From: Streptomyces sp. P3
GTDB lineage: Bacteria > Actinomycetota > Actinomycetes > Streptomycetales > Streptomycetaceae
Direction: 5' to 3'
NCBI RefSeq assembly: GCF_003032475.1
Contig: NZ_CP028369.1
Coordinates: 682,001-746,000, forward strand
DNA: 64,000 nucleotides
The translations under genes and the position numbers were made by a program. The notes beneath the pieces are model-generated. The model worked only from the letters and a program-made list of their open reading frames with translations, was not told the origin of the DNA and made no database searches. Position 1 is the first letter of the stretch. Each line of letters starts with the position of its first letter. This document shows positions 6,553 through 25,213 of the stretch, piece after piece.

Positions 6553-6854
6553 CGTAAAGTTCGAAGCGGAGCCGCAAGATCCACCGGCGTTCGCCCTGTC
6601 GGACACGTGTGATCAGGCAGAGCGCCGCCGCAGACCGGCGAAGAGTCCGTACGCCCGTCGTGCGTGACACGCATCAACACACCCTTTTGACGCGCAACCG
6701 CGCTTGTTTCCCGCCATTTCCGGCCTCGAAACGCACTCTCCGATGTGACTTACGCGACGATGGACGGGCCCGGCCTGACTCTCCCCCTCCCGGGGGCGTA
6801 GCCTTTATTCCCGCTGTCCATCACCTTGTGAAGCGGAAGAGGGCGGTTGCCGCC
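6553..6854. other. Upstream region of kgd
   Basis: About 300 bases between the kinase and kgd. A TTGACG at about 6688 could be a -35 element but no good -10 stands at the right distance. An ATG- or GTG-initiated extension of the kgd frame through this region would be rich in Arg and Pro and unlike the enzyme, so it is treated as untranslated. Confidence 0.5.
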
Positions 6855-9800: not shown

Positions 9801-10652
9801 TCCCTGCTGTCCGAGTACGCGGTCATGGGCTTCGAGTACGGCTACTCGCTGGCCCGCCCGGACGCGCTCGTGATGTGGGAGGCGCAGTTCGGCGACTTCG
9901 TCAACGGCGCGCAGACGGTCGTCGACGAGTACATCTCGGCGGCCGAGCAGAAGTGGGGCCAGACGTCCGGCGTCACCCTGCTCCTCCCGCACGGCTACGA
10001 GGGCCAGGGCCCGGACCACTCCTCGGCCCGCGTCGAGCGCTTCCTCCAGCTGTGCGCCCAGAACAACATGACGGTCGCGATGCCCACGCTCCCGTCGAAC
10101 TACTTCCACCTCCTGCGGTGGCAGGTGCACAACCCGCACCACAAGCCGCTGGTCGTCTTCACCCCGAAGTCGATGCTGCGCCTGAAGGCCGCCGCGTCGA
10201 AGGCGGAGGAGTTCACCACGGGCCAGTTCCGCCCGGTCATCGGCGACACGTCGGTCGAGGCGAACGCGGTCAAGAAGGTTGTCTTCTGCGCCGGCAAGGT
10301 GTACTACGACCTCGAGGCCGAGCGGCAGAAGCGCGGCATCACGGACACGGCGATCATCCGCCTCGAGCGGCTGTACCCGCTGCCGGGCGCCGAGGTCCAG
10401 GCGGAGGTCAACAAGTACCCGAACGCCGAGAAGTACCTGTGGGTGCAGGAGGAGCCGGCCAACCAGGGCGCCTGGCCGTTCATCGCCCTGAACCTGATCG
10501 ACCACCTGGACCTGGCGGTCGGCGCCGACATCCCGCACGGTGAGCGGCTGCGCCGCATCTCCCGGCCGCACGGCTCGTCCCCGGCCGTCGGCTCGGCGAA
10601 GCGTCACCAGGCCGAGCAGGAGCAGCTGGTCCGCGAGGTCTTCGAGGCGTGA
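6855..10652 (+). CDS. kgd: Multifunctional 2-oxoglutarate decarboxylase/dehydrogenase (E1o with fused E2o-like domain)
   Basis: Central-carbon enzyme of the actinobacterial 2-oxoglutarate step. It combines a thiamine-diphosphate E1o domain with an E2-type succinyltransferase domain. From the chosen GTG at 6855 it is 1265 residues. Residues ~25-55 carry the E1 N-terminal segment [13 protein letters not shown], and ~60-142 form an Ala/Pro linker. Residues ~168-385 are the acyltransferase domain ending in [10 protein letters not shown], and the remainder is E1o with [10 protein letters not shown] and NNQVGFT around the cofactor site. It lacks a lipoyl domain, as in mycobacterial KGD. Alternative in-frame starts at 6828 and upstream exist; 6855 gives the usual N-terminus [11 protein letters not shown] perfect hairpin follows the stop. 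Confidence 0.96.
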
Positions 10653-10808: not shown

Positions 10809-13800
10809 TCAGATGACCTGGGGTTCGAAGTCCCAGTAGGGCCGGTTGCGGGAGCGGGCCGAGACGGTGTGCGGATGCTTGCTGCCCAGTGTCGCGTCGA
10901 AGTCCGACAGGGCCTCCTGTTCGACCTTCTCCGCCTGCCGCCGGTCCCGCAGTCCGCGCAGGTCGGCCGCGTGCGCGATACGCGCCGACAGGGTCAGCGG
11001 GTGGGTGCGCCCGAGCGTCTCGACGGCCCGGCCGACCGTGTCGTGGCTGAGCTCGGCGGCGCTCTCGGTGTCGCCGACGATGTTGCGCAGGGCGGAGGCG
11101 TTCAGGGCGCAGCCCAGCGTCCAGGGATGGTGCTCCCCCACGGCGTCGGTCATCGCGGCCAGCGCCTGCTCGAGGAGGACGTGGCCCGCCTCCCGCTCGC
11201 CGACGTTGCGCAGGATCAGCGCCTGGTTGGCGCGGGCCCCGGCGACGAACGGATGCTCGTCGCCCAGCATCACCTCGTACCGCGCGACGACGGCCTCGCT
11301 GAGCTCGCGGGCCCGGTCGATGTCCCCGTGCTCGCGGGCATAGCAGCTCTGGGCCGTCGCGAAGATCAGGGTCAGCGGATGCGTCTCGCCGAGCACCCGC
11401 TCGCCGCGCTCCAGCACGCTGGAGAGCAGCTCCCCGGGCTCCTCGCGTTCGGCGCCGCGGTCGCGGCCCCGGTCCCGCTCGCCCAGGCGGTAGCGGCACA
11501 GCGCGAGGTTGTGCTCGGCCTTGAGGGTCTGGGGGTTGTCGGGGCCCATCACGAGCCGGATCTCGCGCACGTTCTTGGCCTGGATGGACTCGGCCTCGGC
11601 GTAGCGGCCGAGCAGCCGCAGGTCGATGGCGTAGGAGATCTCGGAGCCGAGGGTCCACGGATGGCGGGCCCGCAGAAGCAGGCGGCGGGATTCCATGGTC
11701 CGCCGGTCGTGCTCCAGGGCCTCCGGGTAGCGGCCGAGCAGCCGCAGGGAGACGGCGAGGTTGTTGAGCGAGTTGAGGCTGCGCGAGTCCTGGTCGCCCA
11801 GCAGGTCTCGGTAGGCCACCAGGACCCACTGGGAGAGTTCCAGCGCCTCGTCGTAGCGGCCGAGGCCGCGCAGGTCGGCGGCGAGGCCGGCGGCGGCCCG
11901 CAGATGCTCCAGGTCCTGCGGGCCGCGCTCCGCCTTCAGGTGTTCGGAGGCGGCCCGGCTGAGGGCCTCGGTGGCGGCGTAGTCGCCGACGGCCCGCAGC
12001 AGGTTGGTGTAGTGGTAGGTCAGCTCCCAGATCCGGGGGTGCGTCGGGCCGAGCAGTTCGCGCCAGGCCTTCATGGCGCGTTCGCCGAGTTTGATGCCGG
12101 CGACGTACTCGCCGGAGAAGTACATGTAGCGCAGGCAGTTGAAGACCAGGCGCTGGACGGTCGGTTCCTGGGTCTGCAGCACGTCGGCGTACTTCAGGTG
12201 CGGCACGATCTCGGCGTATCCGGGCCACAGGTCGGGGTCGGTGGGCCTGCGCGGGTCGGCCGCGGCGAGGGCCAGCCGGACGACGTCGATGAACTCCTTG
12301 CGGTCGGCGTCCGGCATGTCCTTGTGCACGATCTGGTGGACCATACGGTGCAGGTACAGCGACTCCCCGGAGCCGGCCCCCTCGTCGCCGACCGCCTCGT
12401 GGGACTCCAGACGGACGACGGAGTACTGGCGGAGCTGGTTGATCGCCTTGTTCCACAGCAGCGGGTCGTTGAGCAGTCCGGCGAGCTGTTCGGGCAGTTC
12501 GTCGCTCGACATCTCGCGCAGCAGCCGGACGGGGATGAAGCCGGGCGCGAAGAAGGTGCACAGCCGCAGCAGGTCCACGGACTCGGGGACGGTCTCGCGG
12601 AGTTTGTTCAGCAGTATCGACCAGGCGGTCTGGAAGGCGAGCGGGAAGTCCGCCGACACCTTCACCACGTCGCTGTCGATGCCGCCGTCCAGCAGGGCGA
12701 TGTACTGGCGCACCGACAGGTCGGAGTCGTTGAGCCAGCCCGCCGTCTGGTCCAGCAGCAGCGGCAGGTCCTCCAGCGCGTCCGCGAGCTGGTCGGCCTC
12801 CCCCTCGGACAGCCGTGGCGCGCGGCGCCTGATGAACGCCACCGACTCGTCGCGGGCGTAGACGGGGACCTCGAGCAACTTGCTGTTGTGCTCGGTCCAT
12901 TCGGGGTTGCGGGAGGTGATGATGACGTGGCCGGGCCCGGTGGGCACCAGGTCCCAGATCTGGTCCGGCTCGTCGGCTCCGTCGAGGATCAGCAGCCATC
13001 GTCCGTACGGGTCGCCGCGGCGCAGCGAGTCACGGACGGCGCGCAGTCGTTCGCCGTACTCCTGGCCGGTCTGCAGACCCAGTTTCGGGGCGAGTTCGGC
13101 GAGCAGCCGACGGTAGGTGACGCGTTTTTCGGCGTTGACCCACCACACGACGTCGTACTCGGAGCCGAACCGGTAGACGTACTCGGCGGCGGTCTGGGTC
13201 TTGCCGACTCCTGACATGCCGTGCAGCGTGACCACGCCGGCGCCCGGCTCCGCGCCCTGCAGCAGGTGGTAGGCGTCGTTGAGCAGCGACTCGCGGCCGG
13301 TGAAGCGGGTGTTGCGGCGCGGCACCCCGCCCCAGACCTCGGGCATCGCCGCCGGGAAGCGGGGGCCGCGGCGGGCGCCGTCGGAGAGGTCGGGCTGCGG
13401 CTCGAAGGGCAGGTCGAGCCGGTCGAGCAGGCGGCGCTCGGCCTCCTCGGCGCCCATGTTGGTCAGGTCGACGGGGGCGAGGACGGCGGTCGCGGCCGGT
13501 ACGGAGGCCGTCGTCACGGAGACGGCGGCGAACCGGGACGGGTCGGGGGCGACGACCTCGCGCAGTGCCGCGTTCCACTCCTCCTGTGTACGGGGACCGA
13601 GCTGGAAGTACCACTCGCTGACGACGATGAGGATGCGGCCCTCGGCGAGTTCCAGGTCGCGCAGCAGATCGACCAGGGGCACCTCGGCCGGGGAGTCCCA
13701 GCGCAGGTACACCACGCGCACGCCGCGGCGTTGCAGCCGGTCTCCGATCCATGCCGCCCAGGCCCGGTTGAATCCCGCGAAATGGATCGTGACCGCCTGC

Positions 13801-13850
13801 CTCGCGGCCCCTCTCCCGGTTGCCCCGACCGGCGTACGAGCTCCAGACAT
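10809..13850 (-). CDS. fxsT: FxSxx-COOH system TPR protein: TIR-like, NB-ARC and tetratricopeptide domains
   Basis: A 1013-residue protein with three parts. Residues ~18-135 are a TIR/SEFIR-like domain (AVTIHFAGFNRAWAAWIGDRL, then ILIVVSEWYF). About 180-480 is a STAND/NB-ARC NTPase with P-loop GMSGVGKTQ, Walker B LLILDGADEPD, VIITSRN and a GLPL-like DLPLLLDQTAGWL. The C-terminal ~450 residues are TPR repeats, each with an LG.THP-type segment. This is the architecture of the FxsT family that accompanies FxSxx-COOH peptides. It would act as a nucleotide-switched sensor whose TPRs recognise a partner and whose TIR-like domain signals or acts as effector; this is inference. The ATG at 13850 is preceded by GGAGG. 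It is downstream of the HExxH gene with a 133-base gap, so it may share the transcript. Confidence 0.9.
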   Translation of the reverse strand: MSGARTPVGATGRGAARQAVTIHFAGFNRAWAAWIGDRLQRRGVRVVYLRWDSPAEVPLVDLLRDLELAEGRILIVVSEWYFQLGPRTQEEWNAALREVVAPDPSRFAAVSVTTASVPAATAVLAPVDLTNMGAEEAERRLLDRLDLPFEPQPDLSDGARRGPRFPAAMPEVWGGVPRRNTRFTGRESLLNDAYHLLQGAEPGAGVVTLHGMSGVGKTQTAAEYVYRFGSEYDVVWWVNAEKRVTYRRLLAELAPKLGLQTGQEYGERLRAVRDSLRRGDPYGRWLLILDGADEPDQIWDLVPTGPGHVIITSRNPEWTEHNSKLLEVPVYARDESVAFIRRRAPRLSEGEADQLADALEDLPLLLDQTAGWLNDSDLSVRQYIALLDGGIDSDVVKVSADFPLAFQTAWSILLNKLRETVPESVDLLRLCTFFAPGFIPVRLLREMSSDELPEQLAGLLNDPLLWNKAINQLRQYSVVRLESHEAVGDEGAGSGESLYLHRMVHQIVHKDMPDADRKEFIDVVRLALAAADPRRPTDPDLWPGYAEIVPHLKYADVLQTQEPTVQRLVFNCLRYMYFSGEYVAGIKLGERAMKAWRELLGPTHPRIWELTYHYTNLLRAVGDYAATEALSRAASEHLKAERGPQDLEHLRAAAGLAADLRGLGRYDEALELSQWVLVAYRDLLGDQDSRSLNSLNNLAVSLRLLGRYPEALEHDRRTMESRRLLLRARHPWTLGSEISYAIDLRLLGRYAEAESIQAKNVREIRLVMGPDNPQTLKAEHNLALCRYRLGERDRGRDRGAEREEPGELLSSVLERGERVLGETHPLTLIFATAQSCYAREHGDIDRARELSEAVVARYEVMLGDEHPFVAGARANQALILRNVGEREAGHVLLEQALAAMTDAVGEHHPWTLGCALNASALRNIVGDTESAAELSHDTVGRAVETLGRTHPLTLSARIAHAADLRGLRDRRQAEKVEQEALSDFDATLGSKHPHTVSARSRNRPYWDFEPQVI

Positions 13851-13983
13851 GCAGCGGCCTCCAGCACGTAGTACCTCGAAAATCCTAGGACCTCGGCGCG
13901 GCGCGCGTAAGTCCGCCGACCTCTTCCGCGCGCGCCTCGGCCCGACGATCTTCGCTCACCGGACGGCCCCTCGCAGGCCATCC

Positions 13984-15480
13984 TCATTCTTTCGGGCGTG
14001 GCAGCGCCGGAGTATGACGCTGTGTCCACAAAGCGCGCGCGGCCTTCACGTAGGCCTCGGCCCGGGCGGTGTGGCTGCGGGGCGCCGGATGTTCGGCCAT
14101 GCGTTCGTAGGCGGCGGCCATCTCGTCGACGAACCGGCGTCCGCGGACGGTGAGGTCGGGCGAGCCGACGAGCGCCGGCAGCGCCGCTTTCACCTGGGCG
14201 CGGTAGCGGGCGTGCCGGGACCACGCGTACACGGCGTCGGGCGGCGCGGCGACGAGCGCCCGGTGCTGGAAGTAGTCGGCGAGGGCCAGATGGGAGTACA
14301 CCCCCTGCAGCAGGGCGTCGTACGGCCGGGGGCCCGTCTTCCAGGGGGCGAAGTAGCGGGCCTCGGGACCGGCGTGATGGAGCGTCACCAGATCGCCCAG
14401 GGCGGCGAGTTTGGCGTGGTGGAGTTCGTGGACGAGGGTGGCGGCGAGGGCGACGGCGTCCTGCGGGGGACTGGCGAGCAGGGCGCCGAACGCCTCGTGC
14501 CGGGTCGCGCTGCAGGTGTCGCGCCCGTCGGCGCCCGGCGGGCTCTCCAGCGGGACCAGGCAGCGCAGCAGCGCCACCGCCTCGGCCACCCGGTGCGCGC
14601 CGCCGGAGCGCAGGGCCGCCTCGGTGCCCGACCAGGCCTGCAGCCAGCGTTTGTGGTCCGTGTCGTCGAGTACGGCCGGTCCGCTGAGGCCGCGGTGGCC
14701 GGGCCCGGGCGCGGTCCGGTACGGGTCCACGTCGTCCAGCGGCAGGGGTGCGGCAGCGGGCAGCAGGCCGGGCAGGGTGCGCACGGGCGTCCAGGCGAGG
14801 GCGGCGGACCAGGCGCCGATGCCGCTCTCCAGGTGGACGACGACGTCCGGCGCGTCGGGCCGGCGAAGCGTCAGCCGCCCGGCGCGGTGGGCTACGTCGA
14901 CGGGGGCGTCCGCGCCGGTGGCCGTGTGCAGCGCGCCGAGGGAGGGCAGGGCGAGCACTCCGGCGCGGGCGGTGAGCCGCACGGTGAAGGGGATGCCGGC
15001 GCGGGCGGCGGCCACCGCGGCGAGGGCGCTGAAGTGGGCCAGGTCCTGGCGCAGCCGGCGGGCCCGGTGTTCGTCCGCGGGGCCGCCGCGCTCGTCGAGC
15101 CCGCGCAGACAGCTCAACGCCCAGGGGCCGGTCAGCGGGTGGAAGAGGCAGGCGCGGGCGGGCGGGTGCGCGGCGCGGGAAGGGTGGGGGTGATCTGCCG
15201 GCGGGCGGGGGCCGTCGGGCGCGCCGGGCGGGCGGGGGCGGATCGCGGGCGGGCGGGACCGGTCGGCCTCGGTGAGCAGGGCCCAGTCCTCGCGCAGCCG
15301 TGCCTTGCGTGCCGTGGAGCAGACCGCCGGGTCCGCCGCGTCGGCCGCGTCGAGGACGGCGCGCAGGAGGAGCAGCCGCCGGGTGTCCTGGTCGCGCGCC
15401 AGGAGCGCCAGCGTGTCGGGGCCCCCTCGGGTGCGGCCGAGCTCCACGAGCCCGCGTTCCGGGACCGCGGACCGGATCAC
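13984..15480 (-). CDS. HExxH-motif protein, probable alpha-ketoglutarate-dependent peptide beta-hydroxylase type
   Basis: A 498-residue protein. The hallmark is LVHELHHAKL, giving HELHH at residues 351-355, in a helical C-terminal half that ends near RFVDEMAAAYERM. This matches the HEXXH-motif domain often fused to the C-terminus of FxsB-type radical SAM maturases. Members of that family have been reported as peptide beta-hydroxylases using 2-oxoglutarate rather than proteases. Here it is a separate gene whose GTG start overlaps the fxsB stop by four bases, with a strong AAGGAGG site, so the two are translationally coupled. A Pro/Arg-rich segment around residues 80-105 looks like a linker. 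Inferred role: second modification step on the FxsA peptide. A metalloprotease role cannot be excluded from sequence alone. Confidence 0.85.
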   Translation of the reverse strand: MIRSAVPERGLVELGRTRGGPDTLALLARDQDTRRLLLLRAVLDAADAADPAVCSTARKARLREDWALLTEADRSRPPAIRPRPPGAPDGPRPPADHPHPSRAAHPPARACLFHPLTGPWALSCLRGLDERGGPADEHRARRLRQDLAHFSALAAVAAARAGIPFTVRLTARAGVLALPSLGALHTATGADAPVDVAHRAGRLTLRRPDAPDVVVHLESGIGAWSAALAWTPVRTLPGLLPAAAPLPLDDVDPYRTAPGPGHRGLSGPAVLDDTDHKRWLQAWSGTEAALRSGGAHRVAEAVALLRCLVPLESPPGADGRDTCSATRHEAFGALLASPPQDAVALAATLVHELHHAKLAALGDLVTLHHAGPEARYFAPWKTGPRPYDALLQGVYSHLALADYFQHRALVAAPPDAVYAWSRHARYRAQVKAALPALVGSPDLTVRGRRFVDEMAAAYERMAEHPAPRSHTARAEAYVKAARALWTQRHTPALPRPKE

Positions 15481-16727
15481 GGAGCGCCTCCTTCGCGGAC
15501 GGCGGGCAGGTGGTGCGGCGCGGGGACGACGTGGGCAGGGGCTGCGGCCGGAGCGGTACGGGCGGCGGCGACGGCAGCGTCAGGGGCGGTACGGCCGGCG
15601 GGGGCGGCGGCGACGGCCGTGTGCGCGGCGAGCCGGGCGGCGATGTGGCGGATCAGTCGCTGGAGGTCGGCGCAGTACACCGACGGGTTGCGGAAGCCGT
15701 GTCCGGCCCGGTAGCGGTGGGCGTAGTGGCCGCCGCCGCAGACCGTGAGCAGGGGGCAGGCGCGGCACTGCGGTGCGAGGGCCGCCGTGCCCGCCTGCCG
15801 GGCCTCGACCGCGGGGTGCCGCAGGGCGTCGTCGAAGGTGTTCCGGAAGACGTCCAGGCCGGTGTGCGCGGCGCCGTCGTACGCGGACTTCAGGGAGTCC
15901 GTCTGCTCGATCGATCCGTCGGTCTCCACCACGACCGCGTCGAAGGGCGCGAGGCCCAGTGACTCGGTGGCGGAGGGCACGCCCAGCAGGAGGGCGAGGC
16001 ACTCCTCGAAGAGGCGCACGCGGGTCTCCCGCCGGCCCGCGTCCCACCAGCGGTCGAAGACGGCGCACAGCCACTCCCCGTGCCGGACGCCGGCCCAGTG
16101 GGGCGGCGGGGCGGACCAGTTGCCGTGCGGCAGCAGGAAGTTGAGAGCCGGGGGACGCAGGCCGAGGAGGGACTCGTACGTCTCCACGGGGTCCAGTGTG
16201 GCGTCGACGACGGTGAGGATGCCGGCGTACGCCGACGGCGCGTGCTCGGCGGCCAGCAGGGCGCCGCGCGCGGCGGCCGGCCAGGAGGGGCGGCCGGCGT
16301 GGTCGACGCGGCGCGCGTTGTGCGCGGCGCGACCTCCGTCGAGACTGACGCTGATCCGGATGCCGCCGTCGGCGAGGACGGCCAGCCGTCGCGCGGTGAG
16401 CAGGGTGGCGTTGGTCTGGACGACGGCGTGGACCGTGCAGCCGGCCGGGACGCGGCCGCGGACCAGGTCGGTGAAGCGGGTCAGGGTCTCGGCGCCGGCC
16501 AGCAGGGGTTCGCCGCCGTGCAGGACGAGGGAGAGGTCCGTCAGGACATGGGCGCGGGCGTGCTCGGCGATGCGGGCCGCGGTGCGGTCGAGGACGTCGG
16601 GGGCCACCGTGGCGGGGCGGGTGCGCCAGGTGCGGTCCGGGCCTTCGTAGAGGTAGCAGTAGGTGCAGGCGAGGTTGCAGCGGCCGTGCATCTTCACGAT
16701 GAACTGCCGGAAGGCCTGTCCGGACAC
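15477..16727 (-). CDS. fxsB: FxsB-type radical SAM/SPASM peptide maturase
   Basis: A 416-residue radical SAM enzyme. Near the N-terminus, KMHGRCNLACTYCYLYEG supplies the CxxxCxxC motif for the SAM-binding 4Fe-4S cluster. LVLHGGEPLL and ISVSLDGGRAAHNARR are typical of SPASM maturases, and the C-terminal cysteines (PQCRACPLLTVCGGGHY and NPSVYC) bind auxiliary clusters. FxsB enzymes form a three-residue cyclophane between the Phe ring and the Ser beta-carbon of the FxS motif in their precursor. The GTG at 16727 is preferred (GGGGGTGCTGGA upstream); an ATG slightly upstream is out of frame and the open frame farther upstream overlaps fxsA. Precursor gene upstream, HExxH gene overlapping downstream. 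The last ~45 residues are Ala/Pro-rich. Confidence 0.93.
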   Translation of the reverse strand: MSGQAFRQFIVKMHGRCNLACTYCYLYEGPDRTWRTRPATVAPDVLDRTAARIAEHARAHVLTDLSLVLHGGEPLLAGAETLTRFTDLVRGRVPAGCTVHAVVQTNATLLTARRLAVLADGGIRISVSLDGGRAAHNARRVDHAGRPSWPAAARGALLAAEHAPSAYAGILTVVDATLDPVETYESLLGLRPPALNFLLPHGNWSAPPPHWAGVRHGEWLCAVFDRWWDAGRRETRVRLFEECLALLLGVPSATESLGLAPFDAVVVETDGSIEQTDSLKSAYDGAAHTGLDVFRNTFDDALRHPAVEARQAGTAALAPQCRACPLLTVCGGGHYAHRYRAGHGFRNPSVYCADLQRLIRHIAARLAAHTAVAAAPAGRTAPDAAVAAARTAPAAAPAHVVPAPHHLPAVREGGAP

Positions 16728-16957
16728 TCCAGCACCCCCATGCCTACAGCCGCCCTGAAGCCGCCCTTCGGCCCGCGCTGCCGCGTGCCCCGCGAACACG
16801 GCGCCCGCGCCTGCGCCGCACGGGGCGCATGCCCGGGCGCACCGCGGACACAAACCCCGTCTGACCGAACTTGTCCGAGTCACGCGCAGATAAGACCGAA
16901 TCCGGCTTCCGAATACTCGAACCTGTCCGGTATGGGCGGCAGTTGGGGTGAGAGCGG

Positions 16958-17173
16958 TCAGAGCACGGAGTCGAACCCCCACAGGGTCTCGCTCGACCTT
17001 GCCGCCCGCTCCCGCAGGTCCTCCACCACCTCACGCAGCACCGGATGCCCGATCGTCCGCAACTCCGCGAGGTCCAGCGCCAGCAGATCCGGCAGCGGCT
17101 CTCCCGCGCCGGGCTCTCCCCCGCCGACGTCGCGCGTGGCCGTCCCCGCCACCGACTCGCCCCGTACGTCCAT
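16958..17173 (-). CDS. fxsA: FxSxx-COOH cyclophane peptide precursor
   Basis: A 71-residue peptide that ends WGFDSVL, i.e. the FxSxx C-terminal signature (Phe-Asp-Ser-Val-Leu-COOH) of FxsA precursors. Residues 1-25 are Gly-rich. The leader LPDLLALDLAELRTIGHPVL followed by a charged helix (REVVEDLRERA) is the usual FxsA leader form. The Phe and Ser of FDS are the residues expected to be joined by FxsB. The ATG at 17173 has GGGAGGAAC 7 bases upstream; a longer frame above it is rejected because it overlaps the vWA gene without a ribosome-binding site. It starts 26 bases after the vWA stop, and 230 untranslated bases separate it from fxsB. That gap may hold a processing site or internal promoter, but no clear signal is visible. 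Confidence 0.9.
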   Translation of the reverse strand: MDVRGESVAGTATRDVGGGEPGAGEPLPDLLALDLAELRTIGHPVLREVVEDLRERAARSSETLWGFDSVL

Positions 17174-17199
17174 GCCCGTTCCTCCCCAACCCGCTCGGC

Positions 17200-20100
17200 T
17201 CACGTCACACGCTCCAGCTCGGCCAGCCGCTCCGCCGTTTCGGCGGCCGTCGGACCGTCTGCGACCAGGCCGCCCTCCGGCAGCCGCGACCACTCCGTCC
17301 GGGCGGCCCGGTAGGCCTCCCGGGCGGCCCTCGGCCGCGAGGCCGCCTCATAGGACATACCCCGCCAGTGGTGCGCCTGCGCACCCGTCCGGACGGCCTC
17401 GTGTCGTCGGCGTTCCGTGGGGGCCGCCCCCTCGGCCTCCCGGGCCGACTCCGCCGCGTCGCGGAAGGCGTCGACCGCCAGGTCGAGGCGGGCCGGGCGG
17501 CGCAGGCTGCGGTAGGCCTCGAACTGGACCTGGCCGAGTTCCAGACGGCACCGGGAGGCCAGCAGCGGGTCCGCCGCGTCGTCGGCGGCGAGTCCGAAGA
17601 GGTGCTCGGCCTCGCGCAGGTCGACGCGGTCCCCGCGGCCCCGGTAGCGCAGCATCAGCGCACGGCCGAGCAGCAGCAGCCGGTGGGCGACCTGCGCACT
17701 GCCCGCCGGGGTCTCCATCCGGCAGTCCCGCAGCACGCGGATCGCCCGGGAGAGCGTGCCCTGGCCCCGCGCCCCGGACTGCAGTCCGGCCAGCCGCAGC
17801 AGCGCCTCGCCCCACTCGGCGAGGACATCGGCGTGCGCGGGCGCGTCGCGGGACATGCGCTGGGCGGCCTGCGCGAAGCGGTCGGCGGCCGTCTCCAGCT
17901 CCGCCGCGTCGCCCGACTCCCGGTGGCGGGCGACCGCGATCCGGCCGGCCCGCGCCAGCAGCGCCGCCCGCCGGCCCTGTTCGCGGACCAGGGCGAGGGC
18001 CTCGTCGACGCGGGCCTGGGCGTCGTCCAGCGGACCGCCCGCCCGGAGCAGCGCGTCTACCAGGTCGAGCAGGACGCGCACCCGCGCCCGTGCCGACTCC
18101 GCGGTGTCGGGCGCCTCCCCGGTGTCGAGGGCGGTGCGCAGCGACTGCGCGCTCTGCTCGGCGTAGAGGCGGGCCTGCACGGGGTCGGCGGTGGCGCCGG
18201 AGAGGCGCAGCAGGACACGGCCGTGCTCCAGGGGGAGTTCGGGCGGCCGCTGCCGGCGGTCGGGCCAGACGTCGGCGAAGGCCTCCAGCATGCCGACGGC
18301 GCCCTGCAGCAGCGCGCTGTCCCCGCCGAGCCGCCACTGCGCCTCCAGGGCCCGCACCCGCTCCAGGGTGAGTCCGAGGGCCTGGTGGTGGTCGAGGTCG
18401 GGTGCCGCGCAGGCGACGGCGTACTCGCGGTCGGCGCGGCGCAGCAGGTCAAGGGCGCCGGCCGGGTCGGCGCGGCGTCTGCGGTCGGTCGCCGCGGCGT
18501 GCAGCACGCGCGCCAGGACGGCCCGTTCGTGCAGCCGCCTCGGGTGAGCCGCGGCGCGCTCCGCGGCCGCCTCCGCCTCCTGCAGCAGGTCGTCGCCGCC
18601 CTGCACCTCCCACAGGCGCAGCGTGCACTGCGCGTACTCGGCCCACAGTTCGGGGTCCGCCCCGGCGGGTCGCTCGTGCTCGGTGGCGCCGCGCAGCAAC
18701 TGCACCGCGTCGATGGCGTCCTGGATCATGCCCTCGCGGTCGAAGCGCTCGATCAGCGTGCGGGCCCGGCGGACCGCCTGGTGCGTCGGCCGCTCCTCGG
18801 AACGCCCCTGCCCGGTGCGGCCGCCGGGCGTCTCGAACTGCTCGGGCAGCGGCATGAACCGCCGCAGCACGCGCGCGGCGACCTCGGCGAAGGGCTGCGG
18901 CACGGGCGCCTCCTCGCCGTTGCCGCCGTTGTCCCCGTGATCGGCCCGGTCGGCGCGGCCCGCGGCGCCGGTGGCGGGCGTGTAGGGGCGGCCGGCGCCG
19001 CCGTCGCCGAGCTGGGCGAGGGCCAGCGCCGGAAAGTTGGGGCCGCCCTTGCCGAACCGCTGCTCGATGTACTCCGAGCAGTGCTTGAGCACCAGCATGG
19101 CCTCGTCGCGGCCGAGCCGGGACAGCAGGGCGTCGCGCACGTCCGCATCGATGCGGTACCACTGGGCGCCGTCGTCGGCGTACTCCTCCGACTCGCGGGT
19201 GAGCAGGCCGCCGACCAGCACCTCCGCGAGCTCCGACGGTCCCGAGTCGGGCAGCATCGTGCGCTGGACGAGCTGCATGACCGGCAGGCACAGGGGCGCG
19301 GCGGCCAGGTACACGGCGAGCCGTCCGGCGGCCGGGGAGGCGCTGGAGCTGAACCTGCTGACCCGCTCGAACGGGGTGCGACGCCGGTCGGCGCGCCCTG
19401 CGGGGGCGGGCGGCTGGTCGGCGCGCACCCAGCCCACGGCGCCCGGCACCGGCCCCGCGCCGGCCCCGGACAGCAGCCTGGCCCAGGCGCCGAGGGCCAC
19501 CGGCTCGGGCGGCAGCACCGGCACCGGCAGCGCCCCGCGGTGGGCCTCCGCCGGAACGCCGGAGGGGGTGCGCACCCGCAGCGCGGCAGCCCCGCCCAGC
19601 GTCTCGCCGCGGCTCAACTCGCAGAAGACCACGGGCAGTCGGGTGCGGTTCCACAGGCGCTGCGGAAGCGGCTGGAGCACGGCGACCGGGCCCTGCCGGG
19701 AGAGGTGGTGCAGCAGCCGGTGCGCCTGTCCGCTGTGCCACAGCGGGCCCGCGCAGTCGCTCACGAAGAGCACGATCCGGCGGCCGGTGGGGTCGCTGAG
19801 CCGGTCCGTGGAGTGCAGCGGCGCCGCGTACACGTCGGGGCTGCGGCTGACCGCGGGGGCGCCGTCCGGCCCCTGGTGCAGATGGCTGACCTTGATGTCC
19901 GAGAAGGCCCCCAACTGGCTGAAGACCTGCTCCAGTTCGAGGAAGAGCCGGTCCCAGACCCGCATCGACGACGAGGCGTCCAGGACCAGTTGGAGCCGGG
20001 CGTCGCCCCGGACCACGGCGCGGTGGACGGGCATGATCAGACCGCCCGCCTGTGCGCTGCGCTCCGCCGTCGCCGTCTCGTCGAGCCGCATGCGCAGCGG

Positions 20101-20694
20101 CGGCGCCGGGCTCCGGTAGCGCTGCAACCGCCGCAGCGCGCGCTGGAGTTCCAGCGGGGCGGGCAGCGCGGGGGCGGCGGGCACGCCCACCGGCAGCGCG
20201 GCGGCCCGGCCCGCGCCACGGGCGCGCGGGACTCCGTCCTGAGGCACCGGGTACAGGCTCACCCGTCCGTCGGCGCCCACCTCCTGCGGCGGCGGCTCCG
20301 GCCGCTCGGGCCGCTCCCCCCGCCCCCCTGGGTCCTGGCCCCCGCCCTGGCCGCCGTCGGGCCGGAACGCGGGCCGGCCTTCGGCCGCGGTCGGCGGCTC
20401 CTCCGCTTCGGAGACGTCCGCCGGCCGGGTCCACCGCGCCAGCCACAGCGCGTCGCACAACTGCTCCACGTCCGGATCGAGCCCCACCCCGCGCAGTCGC
20501 GCGACCAGTTCGGCGAGAGGGTCGCCCTCGTCGGGGGCCGGGGCCGTGGCGGGGTTCGGTGCCGGGGTCGATGCCGAGGTCGGGGGCGGGGAGGCCGAGG
20601 GATCGCCGTGGTGGTCCTGATCGTCACGGTGATGGTCGTGACGGTGGTGGTCGTCGGGCGGGACGGGGCCGTGGCGGGCCGCTGCGTCGGGCAT
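17200..20694 (-). CDS. vWA-domain and TPR-like protein (SAV_2336 type) of the VMAP ternary system
   Basis: A 1164-residue protein. The first ~45 residues are rich in His and Asp (HHRHDHHRDDQDHHGD), then a Pro-rich stretch and a small helical domain. At about residue 238, LVLDASSSM gives the DxSxS metal-ion-dependent adhesion motif of a von Willebrand A domain, followed by IVLFVSDCAGPLW. From ~650 onward there are helical repeats of TPR character (many LW..yA and LLRR segments). This resembles the actinobacterial SAV_2336 family, which pairs with a MoxR ATPase. The ATG at 20694 lies 7 bases past the moxR-like stop; an upstream ATG overlapping that gene by 50 bases has no reason to be preferred. 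Likely the vWA partner on which the MoxR ATPase acts. Confidence 0.85.
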   Translation of the reverse strand: MPDAAARHGPVPPDDHHRHDHHRDDQDHHGDPSASPPPTSASTPAPNPATAPAPDEGDPLAELVARLRGVGLDPDVEQLCDALWLARWTRPADVSEAEEPPTAAEGRPAFRPDGGQGGGQDPGGRGERPERPEPPPQEVGADGRVSLYPVPQDGVPRARGAGRAAALPVGVPAAPALPAPLELQRALRRLQRYRSPAPPLRMRLDETATAERSAQAGGLIMPVHRAVVRGDARLQLVLDASSSMRVWDRLFLELEQVFSQLGAFSDIKVSHLHQGPDGAPAVSRSPDVYAAPLHSTDRLSDPTGRRIVLFVSDCAGPLWHSGQAHRLLHHLSRQGPVAVLQPLPQRLWNRTRLPVVFCELSRGETLGGAAALRVRTPSGVPAEAHRGALPVPVLPPEPVALGAWARLLSGAGAGPVPGAVGWVRADQPPAPAGRADRRRTPFERVSRFSSSASPAAGRLAVYLAAAPLCLPVMQLVQRTMLPDSGPSELAEVLVGGLLTRESEEYADDGAQWYRIDADVRDALLSRLGRDEAMLVLKHCSEYIEQRFGKGGPNFPALALAQLGDGGAGRPYTPATGAAGRADRADHGDNGGNGEEAPVPQPFAEVAARVLRRFMPLPEQFETPGGRTGQGRSEERPTHQAVRRARTLIERFDREGMIQDAIDAVQLLRGATEHERPAGADPELWAEYAQCTLRLWEVQGGDDLLQEAEAAAERAAAHPRRLHERAVLARVLHAAATDRRRRADPAGALDLLRRADREYAVACAAPDLDHHQALGLTLERVRALEAQWRLGGDSALLQGAVGMLEAFADVWPDRRQRPPELPLEHGRVLLRLSGATADPVQARLYAEQSAQSLRTALDTGEAPDTAESARARVRVLLDLVDALLRAGGPLDDAQARVDEALALVREQGRRAALLARAGRIAVARHRESGDAAELETAADRFAQAAQRMSRDAPAHADVLAEWGEALLRLAGLQSGARGQGTLSRAIRVLRDCRMETPAGSAQVAHRLLLLGRALMLRYRGRGDRVDLREAEHLFGLAADDAADPLLASRCRLELGQVQFEAYRSLRRPARLDLAVDAFRDAAESAREAEGAAPTERRRHEAVRTGAQAHHWRGMSYEAASRPRAAREAYRAARTEWSRLPEGGLVADGPTAAETAERLAELERVT

Positions 20695-20701
20695 CAGGCC
20701 C

Positions 20702-21724
20702 TCACCTCGGGCGGTCGAGTCGCTGGATGAGCAGGTCGGCCAGCCGGTCACGACTGGGCGGCGCGGCCGCGTCGGTGAGGTAGATCGCGTTCAACAGCTG
20801 GTCCGCGGCGAGGAGTTCACTGCGTGACCGCTCCAGGAACCGCGTGATCAGATCGTCCCCCGCGCGGGCCGCCTCGTCACCGAGATGCGCGCGGACGAAG
20901 GTGGCGAGCCGGTTGTGGTCGGGGCGCCCCAGCTCCAGGTGGATGCACCGGCGCATCAGCGGGGCCGGGAAGTCGCGCTCCCCGTTGCTGGTGAGCACGA
21001 CGAACGGGAAGGCGCGGCAGCGCACCCGCCCGTCGCGCACCCGCACCTTCACGCCGTCGGCGGTGAGCACCTCCGCCTCGCCGTCCGGCAGCCGGTCGGC
21101 GATCCGCTCCAGCTCGGGTATCGCGAACTCGCCCTCCTCCAGGACGTTCAGCAGGTCGTTGGGCAGGTCGATGTCGCTCTTGTCCAGTTCGTCGATGAGC
21201 AGCACGCGCGGCGTGTCGGAGGGCAGCAGGGCGGTGCCGAGCGGCCCCAGCCGGATGTAGCTGCCGATGCCCTCGACCGCCCCCGGCGAGCCGGCCGCCG
21301 ACCCGAACCCGCCCTGGGCGGCGATCTGCACGTCCTGGAGCCGGGCGATGGCGTCGTAGTGGTAGAGCCCGTCCTGCAGTGCGGACCGGCTGACGATGGA
21401 CCAGCGCAGCACGCCGCCGAGGCCGAGTTCGTACGCCACCGAGTGGGCCAGGGTGCTCTTGCCCGCGCCGGGACTGCCCGTGACGAGCAGCGGACGGCGC
21501 AGATACAGCGCCGCGTTGATCATCTCCAGCTCCTCGGCGCCCGGACGGTGCAGTTCCGCCAGATGCCGGTGCGCGCCGAGCCTGCGGTCCTGGGAGCCGT
21601 CGCCCGACCCCGCCGCGTCCCGGCTGGTGAAGTCCCGCCACGGGGGAGGGTCGGGCAGCCGCTCGATTCCGTCGTGCGGTTCGCCGGCGCCTCGGTAGAT
21701 GAGCCACTCACTGGATTCGGTCAT
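20702..21724 (-). CDS. MoxR-type AAA+ ATPase
   Basis: A 340-residue single-domain AAA+ protein. Walker A is GSPGAGKSTL (about residue 83), Walker B is RVLLIDELDKSDIDLPNDLL, sensor 1 is VVLTSNGERDFP and an arginine-rich RRCIHLELG follows. These are MoxR-clade features, with the ELDKS variant after the Walker B Asp-Glu pair. MoxR ATPases act as remodelling chaperones for vWA proteins, and the vWA gene follows 7 bases downstream. Together with the VMAP gene upstream it forms the vWA-MoxR-VMAP triad described by comparative genomics as a conflict system. Confidence 0.93.
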   Translation of the reverse strand: MTESSEWLIYRGAGEPHDGIERLPDPPPWRDFTSRDAAGSGDGSQDRRLGAHRHLAELHRPGAEELEMINAALYLRRPLLVTGSPGAGKSTLAHSVAYELGLGGVLRWSIVSRSALQDGLYHYDAIARLQDVQIAAQGGFGSAAGSPGAVEGIGSYIRLGPLGTALLPSDTPRVLLIDELDKSDIDLPNDLLNVLEEGEFAIPELERIADRLPDGEAEVLTADGVKVRVRDGRVRCRAFPFVVLTSNGERDFPAPLMRRCIHLELGRPDHNRLATFVRAHLGDEAARAGDDLITRFLERSRSELLAADQLLNAIYLTDAAAPPSRDRLADLLIQRLDRPR

Positions 21725-21832
21725 GATCCGGTCCTCGTCACTCGTCCACTGCCGCGGCGGTCCGAACGTGCATCACGTTATCCATCCTGGGGGTGCCTGG
21801 TAAGGGGCCGGCCGGCCCCGCGGACGGGTGCC

Positions 21833-24157
21833 TCAAGGGGCTTCCAGCAGGTCACCCGTTCCGGGGAGGGGCTGGTGGGGATCGTCGTACAACAGGGCCA
21901 CGCCGTCGGCCCAGAAGGACTCCGTGCGGCCCTCGCGCAGTCGTACCCGGAGGTCGTGGACGGCCTCGGGAAGGTGCTGCGCGGTGGGCGGCTCGGCGAT
22001 CTCGTCGATCGTGCCGCGGTGGAACTCGCCGCAGACCGCGTCCGACCGGCCGCGCCGTCGGCGCCACAGGGCCACGCCGTAGCCGCCGAGCACGATCCGG
22101 GCGAGGGCCTCCGCGTCGTCCTCGTAACGGAGGTCGCCGTAACGGCAGAGCACCGGGACCGTACCGTGCGACAGGGCGCGCAACTGCTCCACGGTCGGCA
22201 CGGGTTTGCGCAACCCCTCGTCGCAGTCGAGGACTTCGGCCCGCGCGCGGTGCGCGTGCAGCCAGCGCCAGCGGGCCCGGCGTTCCGCGTCCACGTCCTC
22301 GTCGTACTCGCCGTACTGGCCTTGCTCTTCGGCGTCTCGCGGGGCCTGCGGACTTCCCTCACCCTCAGGGCCCCGCCAGTCCTGCGGGTCCTGCGGGTCC
22401 TGCGGGTCGCGCCAGTGGCCCGCGTCGTCGTCGCCTGCGTCGTCGTACGCCCCGAACGCCCCGTCGGGCAGCCGGTCGCGGTCCGCGCAGCGCACGACGA
22501 CGGGCCGCAGGGTCCCCAACGGTGCCTCGTCCGGTGGGAGTTGCCAGGCGTCCACTTCGAGGCCGAGCAGCGCGTGCGGCAGCGCCACCTGGAGCAGCGC
22601 GGGCCTGCCGGGCTCGTCGCAGTGGCGGAAGGCCTCCGCGAGCGGTCCGGCGAGGAGGCCGGGCAGCTCGGCCAGCGGCGTGCGCTCCGCCTCGTGCAGC
22701 CGTACGGCCTCGCCGCCGGGAACGGTCACGCAGACCGACCAGTCGCAGCGGTCCGGCTCCCAGCCGCGCCGCACCAGCTCGAGCAGGGCGGAGGGCCGGG
22801 CCGCGCTGCCCGGGGCACCGCCACGGGCACGCGCGGGTGCGCCCTGCCCGCGCCGCCGGCCACGCCCGCGCCCGCGCCCGCCGGGACCGTCCACGGCGGG
22901 CGCGCCTCCGGAGACCGTGTCGGGGGCGTCGTGCCCCGTCCCGTCCCGCCGGCGCAGCCGCGCGATCCGCTGCTCGGCGAGGCCGGACCGGTAGCGGGCG
23001 CTCAGCCGCTGCGCGGCCTGCCAGACCCAGACCCACAGGGCCTTCTCGGCGTCCGGGGTGCTGGGCACGACGAACGGGCGCGGCGCGGACATCGCCCGCA
23101 TCGCGTAGTCGAGCACCAGCTCCAGCGCCCCGTCGTCACTCGCGCTCTCGTACAGCGCGCCGAGACCGTCGCGCCAGCCGCGCGGTGCGGGCAGCGGAAC
23201 GGGACCCTGGAGGTCGGGGAGGGAGTCGAGGATGTCCAGCAGACCTCGGGTGCTCTCGGGCGGCGGGAGCTCGGCGAGCCGGCCCAGCAGCTGGATCCGC
23301 TCGTCCGGACTGAGAGTGCGGCCCGGTCGGGCGCCCAGCCTGCCCTGCACGTCGGTCCAGGTCTGCCGCCGGGAGGCCGGGTGGCGCTGCCGGTCGCGGT
23401 GGTAGCGGTCATGGGCGTGGAAGACCGCCTGGTAGAGGTCGCTGTGCTCGGCCGGCACCGCCTCCGCGGGCACCCGAAGGGTGCGCAGCTGCTCGATCCC
23501 GGTGGAGGTGCCGCCCGGCCGGTGGTCCGAGCGCGCCTTCAGGACGCCGATCACCTCGCCGCGCACCGGGTCGATCACCGGCCCGCCCGAGACGCCGTAG
23601 GGCAGGTCGTTGTCGCCCAGCCGCATCTGCACGTCCGAGGACCAGCCGCCGATCGTCCCCTGCACCGTGAGCGTGCCGTCCAGGACCTGCAACCGGCCCT
23701 CGTTCTCGGTCCAGCCCGCGTACAGCACCCGGCCTTCGCCGTAGTAGGCCGCCGGACGCTCGGAGACGTACACGCACTCGTGGTCGTCGACCGGTTCGGT
23801 CAACTGCACCAGCGCCAGGTCCGGAGCCGGCCAGTTGCCGGCGGACGCGGCCCGCCCGGCACGCTCGGGCAGCGTCGCCACCACCCTGCCGGGCGCGCTC
23901 GAGGCACCCCGTCCCGGAGCCGTCTCATACACCACGGCAACCTTGCCCCCCTCCCCGCCGCAGGCCACGTGTGCGCAGGTCAGAACCCAGTTGGGAGCGA
24001 CGAAGAAGCCGCTGCCGAGGAACGTCCCGGGCTCATCCAGGGCATACCCGACCACCGGGCGATGAATGCGCACGGTCGCCGCCACGACGAGTCCACGCAG
24101 CGCACGGCGGGCCGCGTCGAACGCGTTCGATGCGCCCGGGGCGTGCCCGCCCGTCAT
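21833..24157 (-). CDS. Trypsin-like protease fused to a VMAP C-terminal domain
   Basis: A 774-residue protein with a complete N-terminal trypsin-like protease domain: His63 in LTCAHV, Asp113 in PAPDLALVQL and Ser190 in YGVSGGPV. There is no signal peptide, so the protease should be cytosolic. The middle is helical. The C-terminal ~350 residues resemble the VMAP-C domain (vWA-MoxR-associated protein), with a cysteine-bearing CDWSVCVTV strand, LRPVVVRCADR and a final LLYDDPHQPLP. An acidic, Pro/Asp/Gln-rich repeat (GHWRDPQDPQDPQDW) interrupts it. The ATG overlaps the preceding gene's stop by four bases. In such systems the protease is thought to be the effector released by the MoxR-vWA switch; this is inference for this locus. 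Confidence 0.88.
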   Translation of the reverse strand: MTGGHAPGASNAFDAARRALRGLVVAATVRIHRPVVGYALDEPGTFLGSGFFVAPNWVLTCAHVACGGEGGKVAVVYETAPGRGASSAPGRVVATLPERAGRAASAGNWPAPDLALVQLTEPVDDHECVYVSERPAAYYGEGRVLYAGWTENEGRLQVLDGTLTVQGTIGGWSSDVQMRLGDNDLPYGVSGGPVIDPVRGEVIGVLKARSDHRPGGTSTGIEQLRTLRVPAEAVPAEHSDLYQAVFHAHDRYHRDRQRHPASRRQTWTDVQGRLGARPGRTLSPDERIQLLGRLAELPPPESTRGLLDILDSLPDLQGPVPLPAPRGWRDGLGALYESASDDGALELVLDYAMRAMSAPRPFVVPSTPDAEKALWVWVWQAAQRLSARYRSGLAEQRIARLRRRDGTGHDAPDTVSGGAPAVDGPGGRGRGRGRRRGQGAPARARGGAPGSAARPSALLELVRRGWEPDRCDWSVCVTVPGGEAVRLHEAERTPLAELPGLLAGPLAEAFRHCDEPGRPALLQVALPHALLGLEVDAWQLPPDEAPLGTLRPVVVRCADRDRLPDGAFGAYDDAGDDDAGHWRDPQDPQDPQDWRGPEGEGSPQAPRDAEEQGQYGEYDEDVDAERRARWRWLHAHRARAEVLDCDEGLRKPVPTVEQLRALSHGTVPVLCRYGDLRYEDDAEALARIVLGGYGVALWRRRRGRSDAVCGEFHRGTIDEIAEPPTAQHLPEAVHDLRVRLREGRTESFWADGVALLYDDPHQPLPGTGDLLEAP

Positions 24158-24798
24158 GCTCCGCCCCCGCCGACGGCGCCGTCGGCCCCCCCGTGCATCG
24201 GCGCGCCGGGGGACGCGCCCGCGCGCCGCGTCCCGTCGACGCCGGATGCGGCGGGGGCGGCGGATGAGACAGGTGGCGGCGGCGAGGTGGGCGGCGGCGG
24301 CGAGACCGGCGACGGGGGTAAGGGCGGCGGGGGCGGCGAGGCGGGTGGAGCCGGTGGAGCCGGTGCTGCCGACGAATGGGCCGAGGAGCCGTCACGCGCG
24401 CGGGCGTCCGTGCCGGCGGTCGTGCCGGCCGGCGGCGCGTCGAGGTCGGGAGGACCGCTGTTCCAGGTCAGGGTGACCGTGATGCCGGCTTTGGCCTCAC
24501 CGTCGGCCAGCAGGCCGACGACCTTCCCGGCCTTGGCGGTCAGCTCGATGCCGAACTCGACGCTCACCTCGTCCGGCCGCACCGCCCGCAGCGGCTCCGC
24601 CAGCGACCGTGCGACCCCCGTGACGAGCGCGTGCAGGCTCTCCACGCTCGCCTCCACCCGCTCGGCGAACCCGGTGTCGCTGTACGACAGCCGCCCGGAC
24701 GGCGCGGACAGCTCACCCGCGTCCGAGATCCGGGCCCAGACGGGCGTCCCGTCCGGCAGCGCGACGCGCGCCACCCGTGTCACGTCCTCACCGCTCAT
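24154..24798 (-). CDS. Trypsin-co-occurring domain protein (CU044_2847/Trypco1 type)
   Basis: A 214-residue protein. The N-terminal ~110 residues are an alpha/beta domain ending in a beta-rich EVSVEFGIELTAKAGKVVG... TVTLTWN segment, the pattern of the small domain found beside trypsin-VMAP genes (Trypco1). The C-terminal 100 residues are disordered and Pro/Ala-rich. The ATG at 24798 is preferred (GGGAG upstream); upstream frame extension is low complexity. It appears to be the first gene of the long minus-strand cluster that runs through fxsB. Function is unknown; the association with the protease gene, four-base overlap included, is what is known of the family. Confidence 0.8.
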   Translation of the reverse strand: MSGEDVTRVARVALPDGTPVWARISDAGELSAPSGRLSYSDTGFAERVEASVESLHALVTGVARSLAEPLRAVRPDEVSVEFGIELTAKAGKVVGLLADGEAKAGITVTLTWNSGPPDLDAPPAGTTAGTDARARDGSSAHSSAAPAPPAPPASPPPPPLPPSPVSPPPPTSPPPPVSSAAPAASGVDGTRRAGASPGAPMHGGADGAVGGGGA

Positions 24799-25030: not shown

Positions 25031-25213
25031 ATGTACTTCACCGATCGCGGAATCGAGGAACTCGAGAAGCGGCGCGGCGAGGAGGAGGTCACCTTCGAGT
25101 GGCTCGCCGAGCAGCTGAGAACGTTCGTCGACCTGAACCCGGACTTCGAGGTGCCGGTGGAGCGGCTGGCGACATGGCTGGCGCGGCTGGACGACGACGA
25201 GGACGACGAGTAG
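25031..25213 (+). CDS. DUF6104 family small protein
   Basis: A 60-residue acidic protein (MYFTDRGIEELEKRRG..., ending DDDEDDE) of a type conserved throughout Streptomyces and annotated DUF6104. It has two helices with VTFEWLAEQL and VPVERLATWLARL and no membrane segment. GGAG lies 8 bases before the ATG. It is monocistronic: divergent from the VMAP cluster and closed by a strong hairpin. No function known. Confidence 0.85.
   Translation: MYFTDRGIEELEKRRGEEEVTFEWLAEQLRTFVDLNPDFEVPVERLATWLARLDDDEDDE

Follow-up and report, generated by a model that had tools for sequence, protein, structure and literature searches.

A peptide-processing system accompanies about 20% of the actinobacterial VMAP systems (Kaur et al. 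2020, PMC7159879). In the FxSxx type described by these authors the vWA protein carries TPRs only, a TIR-AP-ATPase-TPR protein is encoded downstream, and the peptide was proposed to be a toxin or a signal. Here, we analysed a stretch of 64,000 nucleotides from Streptomyces sp. P3 (NZ_CP028369.1, positions 682,001 to 746,000; called the window), the source genome of which is one 9.85-Mb contig. On the minus strand of the window, eight genes (positions 10809-24798) encode Trypco1, trypsin-VMAP, MoxR, vWA-TPR, FxsA, FxsB, HExxH and FxsT proteins, and there is hardly any doubt that they constitute an FxSxx-type VMAP ternary system. We found that these genes are one inherited chromosomal island between kgd, which encodes a 2-oxoglutarate dehydrogenase, and a DUF6104 gene. 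The island probably makes a cross-linked peptide that is coupled to a predicted infection-response switch.

The composition of this cluster is already published (PMC7159879). An original prediction, made from the letters of the window alone, had assumed that only the components were previously described, which is not so: the covered parts of Kaur et al. give the combination, including the TPR-bearing vWA protein and the separate TIR-AP-ATPase-TPR protein. Its idea that the peptide serves as signal or effector under control of the MoxR-vWA switch is also close to their proposal. When compared with the literature searched (PMC7159879 without its supplementary data, triceptides via references and a review; the other papers cited below were likewise covered in part), the chromosomal site, the leader arginine of the precursor and the core classes are apparently new.

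Linkage of the VMAP and fxs genes

Among 150 genomes of the family, FxsB exceeded the cut-off in 122 and VMAP-C in 107. The best-listed 150 FxsB matches were paired with the best-listed 150 VMAP-C matches plus the window's own, and among the matches listed at least 37 pairs were located within 30 kb. One of them had its partners on opposite strands; in the 36 same-strand pairs (window included) VMAP-C was found 3.9-12.0 kb upstream of FxsB. In all 35 loci that were fetched besides the window, MoxR, vWA, FxsB and the FxsT-type ATPase followed the window order. The trypsin domain was inside the fetched stretch in 34 of them and HExxH was missing in nine; here and below, a missing gene is one that the models used did not detect within the stretch covered. 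At FxsB loci of other families trypsin-VMAP was seen in none of the 37 fetched, several of which end at contig ends, and two of these loci have MoxR and vWA on the opposite strand.

The distances of the two halves co-vary. For MoxR and the NB-ARC domain of FxsT we obtained an r-value of 0.96 (39 loci, Mantel p 0.001), and for the unique clusters, from which fragments (rows below 70% of the median length) were left out, r was 0.92 for vWA and FxsB, 0.80 for MoxR and FxsB, 0.76 for trypsin and FxsB and 0.93 for FxsB and FxsT NB-ARC; the correlations are not freed of the shared species tree, which contributes. Initially low values for FxsB (r 0.49-0.63) were an artefact of keeping one domain stretch per protein. 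Similarly, a broken FxsB in one locus (L037) proved wrong: the scored 56-residue piece belongs to an open frame of 492 residues.

The enlarged set comprised 120 loci, 80 of which were the closest named MoxR relatives (best 80 of 579). The MoxR of Actinobacteria bacterium OV320 is 100% identical to that of the window, and the remaining relatives kept belong to Streptomyces or Actinacidiphila. A full cluster (FxsB, MoxR and FxsT ATPase) was present in 101 loci, 95 of them unique by precursor and S1 residue; the other 19 were mostly cut by contig ends, and some were FxsB-less. Trypco1 was detected in 62 of the 101 full clusters and co-occurs with Fxs genes in the window and its relatives. At one locus (handles L047 and L225) about 12 kb separate VMAP-C from FxsB, and the vWA and FxsB genes have other sequence between them. 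Another (L255) has two trypsin-Trypco1-MoxR-vWA sets in back-to-back arrangement, of which one is accompanied by FxsB and FxsT and the other is not in the stretch covered.

Since the order is conserved, the distances of the halves co-vary and one site exists in occupied and empty states, the link is not chance. The original prediction was right in that the two halves belong together, as conserved order, fixed site and co-varying distances indicate. With regard to independent occurrence the picture is divided: the majority of the listed copies of either half occur separately, which speaks for independence, and the joined form is a stable, conserved type at a fixed site, which speaks for the link.

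Chromosomal site of the island

DUF6104 is present in 60 of the 61 genomes of the genus sample, and its motif was found in the covered stretch of 95 of the 100 full-cluster loci besides the window. In 56 of the 60 genomes kgd and DUF6104 share one contig; the other four are without kgd on that contig. The 56 sites were classed from coordinates, and matches to the window proteins at E 1e-80 or better were taken as FxsB and MoxR. MoxR and FxsB both lie between the flanks in 20 genomes (including the window), MoxR without FxsB in 12 and FxsB without MoxR in one (G518). The site is empty in 16 genomes, with the flanks 78-324 bases apart (class limit < 600), and in seven the flanks are 651-4545 bases apart and enclose neither of the two genes. 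Because 12 sites are MoxR-only and a single one is FxsB-only, the fxs part is seldom found here without the VMAP part and the reverse is common.

Five FxsB-less loci from other samples, for which the site was not tested (L101, L129, L132, L257, L258), retain trypsin-VMAP, MoxR, vWA, HExxH and FxsT, and FxsB-less sibling loci have a different precursor core where the precursor was read. In the genomes of L101, L129 and L132 (G044, G092, G146) only weak matches to the FxsB model were found anywhere. Two of the seven genomes with a gap but neither gene at the site (G517 with L265, G550 with L279) have an HExxH match beside DUF6104 with kgd about 1.5 kb off and no MoxR or FxsB found; these matches are perhaps remnants of a lost island. 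The HExxH enzyme of the island is predicted to use 2-oxoglutarate, and its neighbourhood to a 2-oxoglutarate dehydrogenase gene may be coincidence.

Precursor peptide and core classes

A precursor was recognised in 94 of the 95 unique clusters, and the typical island leader reads LPDLxxLDLexLRTxxHPVLxxVLxxLRxR. Window FxsA carries HPVL...LRER in its leader and the C-terminus LWGFDSVL, which is a true FxSxx-COOH end (FDSVL). The final leader arginine was found in 92 of the 94 island precursors (exceptions: N in L043, G in L211), although the search model was trained on 22 mostly arginine-bearing island precursors and is thus biased towards finding this residue. At the same position of 11 alignable precursors from other families there was no arginine (six E, two D, two A, one P), and a twelfth was gapped. 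The FxsB-less loci L129 and L130 have the leader arginine, which argues against a clean split between island and non-island precursors. Two of the other-family FxsB loci with these aligned precursors (L143, L145) adjoin a vWA-MoxR pair. At fused-type FxsB loci (L005-L034) a precursor motif search found none; the maturase was recognised by motif in only one of the 30.

Co-variation of the trypsin S1 residue with the leader arginine was dropped since it was not replicated in the enlarged set. Of the first 36 linked loci, 32 had an acidic S1 residue; among the four others, two were without leader arginine or the usual leader. For VMAP loci picked as FxsB-unlinked, S1 was acidic in five of 24 readable trypsin domains, and one locus (L118) later proved linked. 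In the enlarged set S1 was acidic in 70 of 93, with eight changes on the tree, and 20 of the 23 non-acidic loci retain the leader arginine.

The exact F-x-S-x-x end is present in just 18 of the 94 cluster precursors, and the commonest core is WGF[DN][NS]. The 84 HExxH-bearing clusters have W-x-aromatic cores (73), NAFDS (10) or one other type. Of the 11 unique clusters in which HExxH was not detected, ten have Y-[HY]-[ED]-D cores; the precursor of the eleventh (L066) is divergent. Across the 94 clusters whose precursor was scored, HExxH presence and core type match perfectly (84 vs 10). On the FxsT tree this switch occurred once, and the match is therefore counted as one event and not as independent evidence. 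Neither trypsin nor vWA was seen in the stretch of one of the ten Tyr-acidic clusters (L140), which is possibly no island.

The FxsT protein

The TPR coil of FxsT resembles in its fold the TPR peptide receptors of the RRNPP and kinesin-light-chain types, and its ATPase part resembles Apaf-1/CED-4. In the TIR domain the E91 column is conserved in 37 of 39 loci; judged by spacing, this residue may be the equivalent of the catalytic glutamate E642 of SARM1. The C-terminal tail RPYWDFEPQ (residues 1003-1011; window 10818-10844, minus strand) is near-invariant in island FxsT proteins and might act as an internal competitor for the groove of the TPR coil. Related tails that are likewise acidic-aromatic, for example RLDFDFEPPPL, end many standalone FxsT proteins.

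Layout and gene identities

The features are summarized in Table 1. Eight genes in one direction, separated by 108 bases before moxR, 230 before fxsB and 133 before fxsT, had been predicted originally, and coordinates together with family searches bore this out.

Table 1. Genes and other features of the island and its flanks (window coordinates)
Feature	Position	Strand	Evidence
kgd-type 2-oxoglutarate dehydrogenase, left flank	6609..10652	+	PF00676, PF16870 and others
fxsT: TIR_2, NB-ARC, kinesin-light-chain-like TPR coil	10809..13850	-	FxSxx_TPR NF040586 840.8, cut-off 300
HExxH protein, predicted alpha-ketoglutarate-dependent peptide beta-hydroxylase	13984..15480	-	mod_HExxH TIGR04267 156.7, cut-off 40; HELHH residue 351
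fxsB, predicted cyclophane-forming radical SAM/SPASM maturase, CxxxCxxC	15477..16727	-	TIGR04269 424.5 bits, cut-off 370
fxsA-fxsB spacer, 230 nt	16728..16957	-	Folding vs shuffles
fxsA, 71-aa precursor	16958..17173	-	Read from DNA, placed by pattern; no family search
vWA protein with C-terminal helical-repeat region called TPR	17200..20751	-	SAV_2336_NTERM NF041121 507.6 bits; DASSS residue 258
MoxR-type AAA+ ATPase (AAA_5)	20702..21724	-	Walker A residue 83, Walker B residue 175
trypsin-VMAP	21833..24157	-	Trypsin_2 PF13365 + helical middle + VMAP-C PF20028
Trypco1 (trypsin-co-occurring domain 1)	24154..24798	-	PF19493 E 4e-20; ATG at 24798
DUF6104 gene, right flank, divergent	25031..25213	+	PF19599 E 1.9e-37

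VMAP, MoxR and vWA genes follow one another in one direction in the window and its relatives. The trypsin-VMAP protein combines an HtrA/trypsin-like protease domain (triad H63, D113, S190; S1 residue D184) with a VMAP-C domain scoring 118.7 bits (threshold 27). In fold comparison it was HtrA/Deg-like, the match list being filled by the protease domain so that the VMAP-C fold was barely probed. On visual inspection, with no prediction tool applied, a signal sequence was not evident. MoxR has the N-terminal motifs of VMAP systems (WxhapG, PsWRxa) as WLIYRG (residues 7-12) and PPWRDF, and W7, G12, W29 and R30 are invariant across 12 sequences. The least secure label is that of the vWA-TPR protein, which is based on gene order, the DASSS motif resembling a metal-ion-dependent adhesion site and the description by Kaur et al.; the Pfam match to VWA_CoxE is sub-threshold (E 0.0037) and no TPR family was matched. 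Its start codon is uncertain, and the GTG at 20751 would overlap moxR by 50 bases.

FxsB matched the structure of the ChlB radical SAM domain (9gm3) with E 4.6e-70, and the HExxH protein matched PDB entry 22nu with E 1.9e-28. As far as sequence can tell, the residues expected for activity are present throughout: the protease triad, the Walker motifs of MoxR, DASSS, CxxxCxxC, HELHH and E91 of the TIR domain. The promoter and terminator scan, of a kind that is uninformative in Streptomyces, gave nothing on the minus strand, and the PADLOC anti-phage models (2023 library) gave weak partial matches only. The fxsA-fxsB spacer is more stably folded than 198 of 200 shuffles (z -2.44), a possible attenuator or mRNA stabiliser. 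Elsewhere in the source genome there is a second FxsB relative with 45% identity (G000:C1:2342865-2343965).

Discussion

Enzymes of the FxsB family form a three-residue cyclophane in the FxsA core, and those of the HExxH family hydroxylate. Our best explanation, an FxSxx-type VMAP island whose FxsA peptide is read by FxsT and whose trigger is VMAP-trypsin, stops as a whole just short of an even chance. FxsA would be matured and would then stay in the cytosol, since the scanned island proteins include no transporter. The VMAP-MoxR-vWA complex with the trypsin domain may be the infection-sensing trigger. The trypsin domain would be the likeliest protease acting on FxsA because it is the sole recognised protease that almost all full clusters contain; its role in peptide release we suggest tentatively and with considerable doubt. 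The freed C-terminal peptide might bind the TPR coil of FxsT and drive assembly of this NLR-like TIR-NB-ARC-TPR protein, whose TIR domain would then act, probably on nicotinamide adenine dinucleotide, and stop the infected cell. FxsT is the likeliest of the candidate readers of the peptide, and actual reading of FxsA by FxsT is a real possibility, though one below even chances. Defence as the purpose of the island is fairly probable. The full reading of the cross-linked peptide as intracellular immune signal, in which trypsin-VMAP-MoxR-vWA senses infection and frees the peptide and the TIR-NB-ARC-TPR protein reads it NLR-like, is more doubtful than any of these parts; in that case each of the two core dialects (W-G-F-D/N and Tyr-acidic) would have its own matching receptor clade.

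The same anatomy would also suit a guard, in which intact or matured FxsA restrains FxsT until proteolysis, by a phage protease or by trypsin-VMAP once triggered, frees the TIR domain. The RPYWDFEPQ tail could compete for the same groove, but the sequence offers nothing that separates a brake from an activator, and we regard the guard as unlikely. More unlikely still is that HExxH, as a zincin-type metallopeptidase, cuts FxsA to free the peptide and that the VMAP part is triggered separately. Kaur et al. (PMC7159879) state this cleavage, one HExxH relative, PflC, is able to break peptide bonds by oxidation or by hydrolysis (PMC12636437), and the motif is intact in all 30 gene-bearing loci among 39 island loci. 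However, the current NCBIfam name of the family is aKG-HExxH-type peptide beta-hydroxylase (aKG, alpha-ketoglutarate), and the gene was not found in 11 of the 95 unique clusters; in ten of these 11 a precursor was recognised. This Tyr-acidic clade argues against HExxH as the general releasing protease, and thus against the published view that peptide release by HExxH is common to all such systems.

That the peptide is exported as an antibiotic or a hormone, with the VMAP part as regulator or self-protection, is improbable. Darobactin, a ribosomally synthesized and post-translationally modified peptide of another radical SAM enzyme, is active against Gram-negative bacteria (PMC9055067), but none of the seven scanned island proteins is a transporter (no transporter search was extended to the wider surroundings in relatives) and the constant partner FxsT looks intracellular and NLR-like. 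Chance adjacency of two unrelated systems has next to no probability. Most listed copies of FxsB and VMAP-C in the family are not adjacent, and the other-family FxsB loci, some incomplete, are without trypsin-VMAP; nevertheless, conserved order, occupied versus empty site states and co-varying distances lead us to take chance as refuted for the joined form.

If the proposed circuit is right, infection would be signalled inside a bacterium by a modified peptide that an NLR-like receptor perceives, a counterpart of second-messenger defence. Even without this circuit, the fixed site with its occupied, FxsB-less and empty states offers natural comparison strains, and together with the variation of the peptide it makes the function easier to test. 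What is gained is the evidence that the cluster is a single island, with a constant location and naturally occurring variants, together with a more precise and testable model in which FxsT reads the FxsA peptide.

The closest known system is the FxSxx-type VMAP system of Kaur et al. (PMC7159879, Fig. 4C), with which the island shares VMAP, MoxR, a TPR-only vWA protein, a small FxSxx precursor, a radical SAM-SPASM enzyme, an HExxH protein and a separate downstream TIR-AP-ATPase-TPR protein, as well as trypsin plus Trypco1 as one VMAP type. Kaur et al. differ in that they call HExxH the releasing metallopeptidase. The covered parts of their paper do not contain the kgd-DUF6104 site, the leader arginine, the Y-acidic cores or FxsB-less loci with a separate TIR-ATPase. 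The triceptide enzymes MscB, XncB, OscB and YxdB (PMC11002830) are likewise radical SAM-SPASM maturases, and their cyclophane links (Phe-Ser, Phe-Asn, Tyr-Asp) fit the island F[DN][SN] and Y.ED cores and so cover both core types; a VMAP, NLR or TIR partner does not appear in the covered parts of that paper. ChlBH (Morishita et al. 2024, via PMC12636437) is a fusion of radical SAM and aKG-HExxH parts, whereas the island has two separate genes. Its FxsB matches the ChlB radical SAM structure and its HExxH protein falls into the hydroxylase family of ChlBH, but HExxH is missing in one island clade. RRNPP and kinesin-light-chain receptors share their fold with the FxsT TPR coil, and Apaf-1/CED-4 with the ATPase part; FxsT, whose ligand is putative, joins both folds to a TIR domain.

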